Origin: Spirochaeta africana DSM 8902
GTDB taxonomy: Bacteria; Spirochaetota; Spirochaetia; DSM-27196; DSM-8902
Reading direction: 5' to 3'
Assembly: GCF_000242595.2 (NCBI RefSeq)
Contig: NC_017098.1
Coordinates: forward strand, 2,294,001 to 2,358,000
Length of the DNA stretch: 64,000 nucleotides
Shown here piece by piece: positions 37,348 to 57,865 of this stretch. The notes below the pieces were generated by a model that did not search any database, had not been told where the DNA came from, and saw nothing but the letters and a program-made list of their open reading frames with translations. Made by a program: the position numbers and the translations under genes. The first letter of the stretch is position 1. Every line of letters starts with the position of its first letter.

Positions 37348-37369
37348 ATTCGCCATGCAAGGAGGAACT

Positions 37370-55220: not shown

Positions 55221-56894
55221 TCAGCTGTTTTTCTGTACCTTGGCCCAGGTGTCTCGCAGGGTCACCGTGCGGTTAAACACCGGAAAACCTGGTTTTGAAA
55301 GCTTGATATCCACGCAATAATAGCCCTTACGCAGGAACTGAAATCGCTGACCGGATTCAGCGTGCTGCAGACTGGGCTCTGCCCAGGCTCGTGGTACAAT
55401 CTGGCGAGAGTCCGGGTTCAGATTATCGAGATAACTGCCGCCCTCACCGGGATTCTCCGGAAACGGCGTACAGAACAGATGATCATAGTTATGCACCTCA
55501 ACCGGAACCGCATGCGCGGCCGAGACCCAGTGCAGGGTTCCCTTCACCTTGCGCCCGTCTGGAGTGCTGCCGCCGCGTGATTCGGGGTCGTAGCTGCAGC
55601 GCAGTTCGACAATCGTACCGTCAGCATCCCTTACCACCTCATCACAGGTTATGTAGTAGGCGTTCTTCAGTCGCACCTCGCGTCCGGGGCTCAAACGAAA
55701 CCATTTTTTGGGCGGCTCCTCGATAAAATCCTCCCGCTCGATGTATAACTCACGGGAAAACGGTACGATCCGCGTGCCTGCAGCCGGATCCTCGGGATTG
55801 TTTTCTGTTACAAATTCCTCGGTCTGTCCGGCGGGGTAATTGGTAATCACGACCTTAACCGGATCCAGTACCGCCATAACCCGCGCCGCTGTTCGGTTCA
55901 GGTGCTCCCGGATATGAAACAGCAGATGCGCAGCATCGATGGTACTTTCCGTCTTGCTGACACCGATATCCCGGCAAAACGCAACGATTGCCTCGGGCGG
56001 GTAGCCGCGGCGGCGCATACCGGAGATAGTTGGCATACGCGGGTCGTCCCATGACTCAACGATCCCCTGCTCCACCAGTTCCCGGAGTTTACGCTTGCTG
56101 AGCACGGTATAGGTCAGGTTCAATCGGGCGAACTCGTACTGATGCGGCGGATCCGGCAGTTCAAGCTCCTTGAGAAACCAGTCGTACAGCGGCCGGTGAT
56201 TCTCGAACTCGAGGGTACAGATGGAGTGACTGATGCCCTCGATGGCATCTGACTGCCCATGGGCGAAGTCGTACATCGGGTAGATGCACCATGTACTTCC
56301 GGTACGATGATGGGCAGCATGTCGAATCCGGTACATGGAAGGATCTCGCATATTCAGATTGGGGTGTGCCATGTCAATCTTTGCCCGCAGTACATGCTCA
56401 CCCTCGGCAAATTCGCCCTTGCGCATCCGTCGGAACAGATCAAGGCTTTCCTGAACCGGACGATCACGGTAGGGACTGTTGCGACCGGGTTCGGTCGGGG
56501 TACCCCGATACTCCCTGATCTGCTCGGGAGACAGGCTGTCGACATAGGCCTTGTCCTTGCTGATCAGAAATTCCGCGAACTCATAGAGCCGTTCGAAATA
56601 GTCAGAGGCATAAAACTCCCGATCACCCCAGTCAAACCCCAGCCAGGCAACATCCTGCTTGATGGATTCAACAAACTCCATCTCCTCCCGGGTAGGATTG
56701 GTATCGTCAAAGCGCAGGTTGCACTGCCCCCCATACTGCTGTGCAAGGGTAAAATTCAGGGTAATCGACTTGGCATGGCCGATATGAAGGTACCCGTTTG
56801 GTTCCGGCGGAAACCGGGTCAGGATCTTGCGGCGCCCTGCGGCAAGATCATTCTCGATAATATGCTCGATAAAGTTCTTGGTGCTCTCACTCAT
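55221..56894 (-). CDS. glnS: Glutaminyl-tRNA synthetase
   Basis: The 557-residue class I synthetase has [16 protein letters not shown] (HIGH motif), [12 protein letters not shown], the KMSKS-equivalent LSKRKLREL, and the beta-barrel anticodon domain at the C-terminus (ending [11 protein letters not shown]). GlnS rather than GlnRS-free amidation implies direct Gln-tRNA charging. ATG 56894 is preceded by GGGGG and, 7 bases before, TAAAGT; GTG 56903 is an alternative. Convergent with the HD-GYP-like gene. Confidence 0.96.
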
Positions 56895-57044
56895 AGCCCC
56901 CACTTTACCACAAGAGCAGCAATTAAGGCACTACCAGCCGCGCAGATGTTTTCCTGTTGAAGCCAGTTTTATTGTTTACCCGCAGAGACAGCAACAGCAG
57001 CCGCTGAGACCTTGAACAACAAAACTGGCGTCAGTTTTCTATGC

Positions 57045-57083
57045 AAAAAAAAGCACGCAGGTAAAGGAGGAAACCTGCGTGCT
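57045..57083 (-). terminator. Intrinsic terminator of the putative small RNA
   Basis: An 11-bp perfect stem (AGCACGCAGGT and ACCTGCGTGCT) with a 10-base loop UUCCUCCUUU is followed on the minus strand by T7-8. No protein gene ends near it on this strand; the CBM gene has its own terminator at 57416-57449. Confidence 0.9.
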
Positions 57084-57250
57084 GATTTTGTATCCTCTGA
57101 GTAAAAATGAGGGGCGGCACCGGGGGTTGGAGGAGGAGAAGGGTTGGTGCCGCCCCCACAATGGAGGATGGTATGTATGCACCGGAAGCCGCATATCCGC
57201 AAAGCGGATAGGGTTGGCTTGGTATGGAGTGTCGCGACTCCCGATACACT
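57045..57250 (-). ncRNA. Putative small regulatory RNA with anti-Shine-Dalgarno loops
   Basis: Minus-strand features in order: a small hairpin GGAGT/ACTCC (57226-57241), hairpin ATCCGC-TTT-GCGGAT (57195-57209), a single-stranded ATCCTCCAT (57162-57169), an 11-bp hairpin GGGGCGGCACC/GGTGCCGCCCC (57111-57121 with 57146-57156) whose 24-base loop contains CTCCTCCTCC, and the terminator hairpin with TTCCTCCTT in its loop. Three UCCUCC segments can pair with GGAGGA ribosome-binding sites. The 5' end is not fixed: an AT-rich stretch lies at 57277-57320, and TTGCGA-16-TAAAGT at 57331-57358 could start a longer (about 280-base) form. No coding potential is seen. Confidence 0.6.
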
Positions 57251-57415
57251 GCTATATATACAACTTCGATGCCAACAGGATACAGAATATAAATATTTTT
57301 ATTTATTTTTTTATTTCATTGCAAGGAAACACTTTACACCATACTTACTGGATCGCAATACCCATGCGGCAATTGGAGATACCAGATTCAGCTCGACGCT
57401 ATACGCGCAGCGCGC

Positions 57416-57449
57416 AAAAAAAAAGCGGAAACCGCATAGCGGCTTCCGC
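57416..57449 (-). terminator. Intrinsic terminator of the CBM48-like lipoprotein gene
   Basis: On the minus strand the stem GCGGAA..CCGC / GCGG..TTCCGC (57425-57449, loop of 3, one mismatch) is followed by T9 (57416-57424), 24 bases after the stop codon. Confidence 0.88.
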
Positions 57450-57472: not shown

Positions 57473-57865
57473 TTACTGCAGTTCGAGAACTGCATTCTCC
57501 CCGCCAAAACCATCATCGGTTGCATCGGTAGGGATTGGATCCACGTACTCAAGAATAGCGGTCGGCTCGGTCCATTCACCGTCGATCACATACTTGTACT
57601 GGTGATTGCCCGCAGGAAGATCTACGGTCAGCTCGAAATACTCACCATTCCAGTCCATGGCCCAGTTCAGGTCATCAGGTGCCCAGCCGGTAAAGGAACC
57701 GGCAAGAACTACTTCCTCGGCCTCGCCGTAGTACGCAAAAGTGATCGGACCGGCTTCATAGATATTGCCCATGGTCAGATCACGTTCAGGCGCCCCGGTG
57801 GCACAGGCAACGGTCATAGCCATCACCAGTACTGCCAATACGGAAAACAGAACAACTTTCTTCAT
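57473..57865 (-). CDS. Small CBM48-like (glycogen-binding) lipoprotein
   Basis: The 130-residue protein has a lipoprotein signal peptide with lipidated Cys21 (MTVAC) and then a single E-set/CBM48 domain: ITFAYYGEAEEVVLAGSFTGW, in pieces, FELTVDLPAGNHQYKYVIDG. This is the glycogen- or starch-binding module otherwise fused to branching or debranching enzymes or AMPK; no catalytic part is present. It is probably exposed on the periplasm or surface and may bind alpha-glucan for the GH13 lipoprotein. AGGAGG ribosome-binding site, clear promoter and terminator. Confidence 0.82.
   Translation of the reverse strand: MKKVVLFSVLAVLVMAMTVACATGAPERDLTMGNIYEAGPITFAYYGEAEEVVLAGSFTGWAPDDLNWAMDWNGEYFELTVDLPAGNHQYKYVIDGEWTEPTAILEYVDPIPTDATDDGFGGENAVLELQ

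Follow-up and report, generated by a model that had tools for sequence, protein, structure and literature searches.

In the window (the whole stretch of 64,000 nucleotides that was analysed), the minus strand from 57250 to 57045 would encode, in our best reading, a free-standing, non-coding small RNA of ~205 nt that acts in trans as an anti-Shine-Dalgarno (anti-SD) regulator, blocking the Shine-Dalgarno sequences (SDs) of a set of mRNAs, and to this reading we assign a probability of about 0.58. What was computed here is the predicted structure, the exposure of its loops, the terminator at its end, the lack of an explanation among known RNAs, and the presence of the loop core at two other terminators. 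A small RNA had already been proposed for this region in an earlier note, and a structured, terminator-ended RNA with anti-SD loops is still the best reading of it, even though the third UCCUCC described there is predicted to be paired and comparative support is absent. The small-RNA reading gains weight because two further terminators carry a CCUCCUUU loop and because the best match of the genome to the CcsR1 model is found at this locus. The evidence against it consists of the lack of a homologue in the order, a poor promoter match, the absence of CCTCC enrichment in terminator loops, and the fact that one anti-SD copy is predicted to be hidden.

The genome is a single contig of 3,285,855 bases, in which the candidate gene lies on the minus strand within a gap of ~570 nt between a gene for a CBM48-type lipoprotein (57865-57473) and a gene on the same strand that we take to be glnS, the start of which could be either the ATG at 56894 or the GTG at 56903 (Table 1). 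The earlier claim that this gap holds an intrinsic terminator serving no protein gene was borne out, because the lipoprotein gene owns a terminator (57449-57425), and the one at 57083-57045 is a second and unrelated one, with ~340 nt between the two. From this second terminator to glnS there are ~150 nt, partly filled by the insertion of a palindromic MITE-like repeat of ~75-90 nt with the ends TGACGCCAGTTTTGTTGTT and AACAACAAAACTGGCGTCA, located at 56958-57033 (minus), which occurs six or more times genome-wide, the copy found here being degenerate. Other elements observed in this genome are AAGGAGGACCCCATG, the start of a multi-copy Mutator-family transposase gene, which occurs about ten times (e.g. 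at 882834, minus strand), and the Csy1 and Csy2 genes at 486597-488700, belonging to a type I-F CRISPR-Cas system.

Table 1. Features of the candidate small RNA gene, its neighbours and a possible target site (positions in the window).
Feature	Positions	Strand	Basis
GH13/CBM48 lipoprotein gene, ribosome-binding site AAGGAGGAA; perfectly complementary to the terminator loop over 9 bases	37359..37367	+	
Downstream gene glnS, glutaminyl-tRNA synthetase	55221..56903	-	homologues in 34/46 order genomes
U8 tract, end of the intrinsic terminator	57045..57052	-	sequence
Hairpin 3: terminator stem AGCACGCAGGU/ACCUGCGUGCU, loop UUCCUCCUUU predicted exposed	57052..57083	-	fold, pair probabilities
Hairpin 2: 11-bp perfect stem GGGGCGGCACC/GGUGCCGCCCC, 24-nt pyrimidine-rich loop, UCCUCCUCC predicted exposed	57111..57156	-	fold, pair probabilities, hairpin scan
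UCCUCC of the linker, mostly hidden by predicted pairing with GAGGAU (57097-57092)	57163..57168	-	pair probabilities
Hairpin 1: 17-bp stem with several G-U pairs and a 7-bp inner hairpin; loop without a full anti-SD	57177..57249	-	minimum-energy and centroid fold
A+T-rich stretch, presumed promoter region, ending in TATATATAG immediately before hairpin 1	57255..57320	-	sequence, inference only
Own intrinsic terminator of the lipoprotein gene, perfect, T9	57425..57449	-	
Upstream gene, 130-aa lipoprotein, glycogen/starch-binding AMPK1_CBM / CBM48-like domain	57473..57865	-	Pfam

The predicted fold of the 206 nt from 57250 to 57045 (minus strand) reaches -87.5 kcal/mol, compared to -49.8 +/- 4.1 in dinucleotide shuffles (z = -9.24, with none of 200 shuffles as stable), and part of this stability is contributed by a large 5' hairpin (57249-57177) that was absent from the earlier note. 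The two hairpins with 11-bp perfect stems and CCUCC-rich loops described there were found again, at 57156-57146/57121-57111 and at 57083-57073/57062-57052, the latter followed by U8, and the CCUCC sites of their loops, AACCCUUCUCCUCCUCCAACCCCC in hairpin 2 and UUCCUCCUUU in hairpin 3, are predicted to be unpaired with a probability of ~1, both loops staying unpaired under every 5' end assumed. A scan of 1.54 Mb of the genome for hairpins with a perfect stem of at least 10 bp and CCTCC or GGAGG in the loop yielded seven distinct ones, among which only hairpins 2 and 3 adjoin each other. As modelled, the structured, terminator-ended anatomy with two adjacent CCUCC loops is more than chance. A third UCCUCC, previously described as unpaired between hairpins, did not behave as such in the predictions: in the RNA 57250-57045 the segment at 57168-57163 is paired with GAGGAU (p ~1), and it is paired with a 5' end at either 57250 or 57262, becoming free only if the start is placed ~40 nt further upstream, as with 57290 or 57320. 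Since the pairing of the linker depends on the assumed 5' end, the RNA would expose two anti-SD loops, not three segments, the third one being conditional and probably hidden.

In the mechanism we propose, hairpin 1 would cap the 5' end and hairpin 3 would terminate transcription, and the loops UCCUCCUCC (hairpin 2) and UUUCCUCCUUU (hairpin 3), being single-stranded, could pair with SDs of the GGAGG type. By analogy, such pairing would keep ribosomes from binding to a number of mRNAs, and the terminator loop with CCUCCUUU, presumably the core expected in the 3' tail of 16S rRNA, would act as a rival of the anti-SD of that rRNA. The likely targets would be those genes whose match (AAGGAGGAA) is longest, and several of these handle starch, sugars or glycerol. 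We infer transcription, the start site, pairing in the cell, repression and the targets from these computations. In the sequence upstream of 57250 (minus strand), no convincing -35/-10 pair could be identified, the best score being equalled in 280 of 300 shuffles, and a CiaR-type promoter repeat (NTTAAG-N5-TTTAAG) was not found upstream of the candidate gene.

The loop core was also sought elsewhere, with pattern searches and sequence stretches that together covered ~47% of the genome. In this portion, CCTCC was seen in three terminator loops versus 2.1 expected, and a general enrichment of this motif in terminator loops was rejected on these counts. The longer core CCTCCTTT is present at two further terminators, beyond those of the 64-kb window, one at 1977880 (minus; loop UUUCCUCCUUUU, stem GCCCCCGGGG) and one at 3020076 (plus; loop UUUUGUUACCUCCUUU, stem GACCCCCAGG), both with stems unrelated to that of hairpin 3. 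Based on loop lengths and composition, ~0.04 terminators with a CCUCCUUU loop would be expected genome-wide, versus these two observed; because the one at 1977880 was found by motif search, the recurrence counts as evidence but does not prove the point. The 3020076 element probably forms a separate transcription unit, because it sits between its own promoter-like site (TTGCCT-17-TATACT, moderately convincing, with a score equalled in 45 of 300 shuffles) and that of leuS (TTGACC-17-TAGTAT). With its ~95 nt from promoter to terminator and CCUCCUUU in the terminator loop, just 5' of a seemingly leaderless leuS, it is a second small RNA candidate. The other terminator (1977874-1977910, minus) is flanked by a 267-aa gene and a 191-aa lipoprotein gene, and is a candidate for either a third small RNA or a 3'-UTR end.

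Among the alternatives, it is unlikely that the region is an ordinary back-up terminator together with a structured 3' part of the transcript of the lipoprotein gene, or a 3'-UTR fragment of it, and that its C-rich loops simply follow from base composition. Such an account would agree with the poor promoter evidence upstream and with CCTCC being overall unenriched in terminator loops, but the lipoprotein gene already ends in a perfect terminator with T9, the two terminators are ~340 nt apart, a z of -9.2 across 200 nt is far beyond such need, and the 11-nt loop UUUCCUCCUUU of hairpin 3 is seen again on an unrelated stem. The location of the terminator ~150 nt 5' of glnS on the same strand, a distance due in part to the repeat insertion, together with the second CCUCC-loop terminator 5' of leuS, also a tRNA-synthetase gene, could point to a cis-acting glnS leader, namely an attenuator in which a ligand, a tRNA or a protein disables the terminator so that glnS can be read. 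We see this as quite improbable, however, as leuS has a promoter-like site 3' of its terminator, no T-box match was obtained at the locus at E up to 10, and the best competing upstream helix has -10.0 kcal/mol versus -21.3 for the terminator; with 372 of 500 shuffles as good as this helix, attenuation by a competing helix was rejected. A conserved glnS attenuator is unlikely, moreover, because a comparable terminator 5' of glnS is found in none of 29 relatives. The pyrimidine-rich loops and the rigid fold would also suit an RNA whose C/U-rich loops bind a protein (e.g. a ribosomal protein or an RNase) and not mRNAs, a very improbable option for which there is nothing specific, SD pairing being the simpler account of the shared CCUCCUUU core. 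Hardly credible, finally, is a functional plus strand with hairpins that soak up CsrA in the manner of CsrB/RsmZ: both loops do read GGAGG, the CsrA recognition core, on that strand, but the U8 tract is compatible only with minus-strand termination, neither a terminator nor a promoter-like site was found for a plus-strand transcript at the locus, and there are only two or three GGAGG sites, whereas known CsrA sponges have many each.

As for the targets of the putative small RNA, the 9-base complement reported before at the GH13 leader (37359-37367) is indeed present, and the duplex energy of this leader with the terminator loop ranks 1st of 52 in the window and 21st of 1242 gene calls (47% of the genome), in a ranking where energies largely track SD strength (r = 0.67). 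The singling out of GH13 as a specific target could not be maintained, as AAGGAGGAA is also found before the ATG of ~ten other convincing genes: those for glycerol kinase, a neighbouring FAD oxidoreductase, a sugar-type solute-binding protein, pullulanase, sufB, a rex-like regulator, an ABC ATPase, a chorismate-synthase-like gene and a small lipoprotein gene. In genome coordinates, glpK is at 403950 and the pullulanase gene at 2655921. Starch, sugar or glycerol use accounts for ~5 of 10 genes with the 9-mer versus 2-3 of 20 control genes with strong SDs, and since these categories were assigned by the analyst after the fact, the bias is suggestive as a post hoc lead only. The candidate gene itself adjoins the starch-binding lipoprotein gene. 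An unlikely extension of the small-RNA reading would be a lineage-specific "decoy anti-SD" circuit, in which unlinked small RNAs with unrelated stems (from the locus, 1977880 minus and 3020076 plus) use their CCUCCUUU loops to tune carbon-use genes with strong SDs, such as those for the GH13 amylase, pullulanase and the sugar-binding protein, and the glycerol kinase operon.

Relatives were sought in an order of 46 genomes, where the host is the sole member of its own genus and family. Searches with blastn in genus, family and order gave nothing above chance except the locus itself, and a covariance model built on the single sequence found only the locus in the 46 genomes, although a one-sequence model is weak and may miss distant relatives. 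The covariance search in relatives contemplated in the earlier note thus produced no homologue among the other 45 genomes of this order. Synteny via the lipoprotein gene led to one fair homologue (48% identity), which lies within an amylase cluster without the RNA, and a strict pattern search for CCUCC-loop terminators in relatives returned none that was convincing and one weak 6-bp case. Based on these sequence comparisons, the candidate small RNA is most likely lineage-specific.

Searches against Rfam gave no family at its gathering score for the locus, and no tRNA was found there. Among known RNAs, the sub-threshold matches that tell the most come from the anti-SD families of Alphaproteobacteria. 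Nowhere in the 3.29 Mb of the genome does the CcsR1 model match better than at the locus (24.6 bits, E 0.0012; the next at 15.6 bits), a score well under the gathering value of CcsR (RF02791; 65.3), and the locus likewise scores 25.7 bits with alpha-r14 (RF02344), where gathering is at 58.8. Because generic hairpin-terminator models score alike at the locus (trpB 30.4, Trp_leader 23.9, sX13 23.8), the alpha-r14 and CcsR scores indicate likeness of architecture and not descent. In alpha-r14, which includes NfeR1 and its relatives and is counted among the "cuckoo RNAs", three CCUCCUCCC loops that are redundant with one another allow NfeR1 to silence mRNAs at the SD, and Hfq is not needed (PMC10746234, PMC7143759). 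The locus shares with this family stable hairpins, the anti-SD CCUCC in loops (those of hairpins 2 and 3 are matched in the RF02344 alignment), a terminal hairpin that doubles as terminator, and variable stem sequences. It differs in having two exposed motifs, neither of them exactly CCUCCUCCC and with the third copy paired, instead of three identical ones, as well as in its host, which is not an alphaproteobacterium, its additional large 5' hairpin, which lacks the motif, and its single copy by covariance search. Common to the locus and CcsR1-4 of Rhodobacter are a C-rich CCUCCUCC loop and a G+C-rich stem, but the first hairpin of the model is unpaired at the locus, which has its own terminator in place of an operon of four RNAs; no DUF1127/CcaF1 gene was recognised among the neighbours, which read as the CBM48-type lipoprotein gene (by Pfam) and glnS.

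The CiaR-dependent csRNAs of streptococci, which are thought to act likewise, are also unlinked short RNAs with a CCUCCU-type anti-SD and unrelated flanks (PMC3091779, PMC4438229). They have traits of their own, CiaR promoters and mostly an anti-start-codon CAU beside the anti-SD; unlinked terminators with a CCUCCUUU loop exist here, and an adjacent anti-start codon was not seen. sX13 of Xanthomonas (RF02232) also consists of rigid stem-loops, and its C-rich loops act independently of Hfq to repress mRNAs that carry G-rich motifs (PMC3771888). The pairing there is of CCCC with GGGG, however, and the locus scores 23.8 against a cut-off of 50. The likeness to C-rich-loop small RNAs of Firmicutes drawn previously was too broad, the closest architectures being alpha-r14/CcsR of Alphaproteobacteria and the streptococcal csRNAs and not those of Firmicutes generally. 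If transcribed and active, the candidate would place an anti-SD-loop regulator beyond Alphaproteobacteria and Firmicutes, with no detectable ancestry in common with theirs. It would then suggest that pairing of loops with SDs arose repeatedly and independently as a mechanism, and a poorly studied lineage would gain a translational regulator open to testing. With a CCUCCUUU loop common to unrelated stems, the roles of loop and stem could be separated by direct test. By analogy, the putative RNA would resemble alpha-r14/CcsR and the csRNAs in its working, short of demonstrated membership in either; the anti-SD-loop mechanism is already known, and the candidate most likely belongs with these systems by mechanism, not by family.
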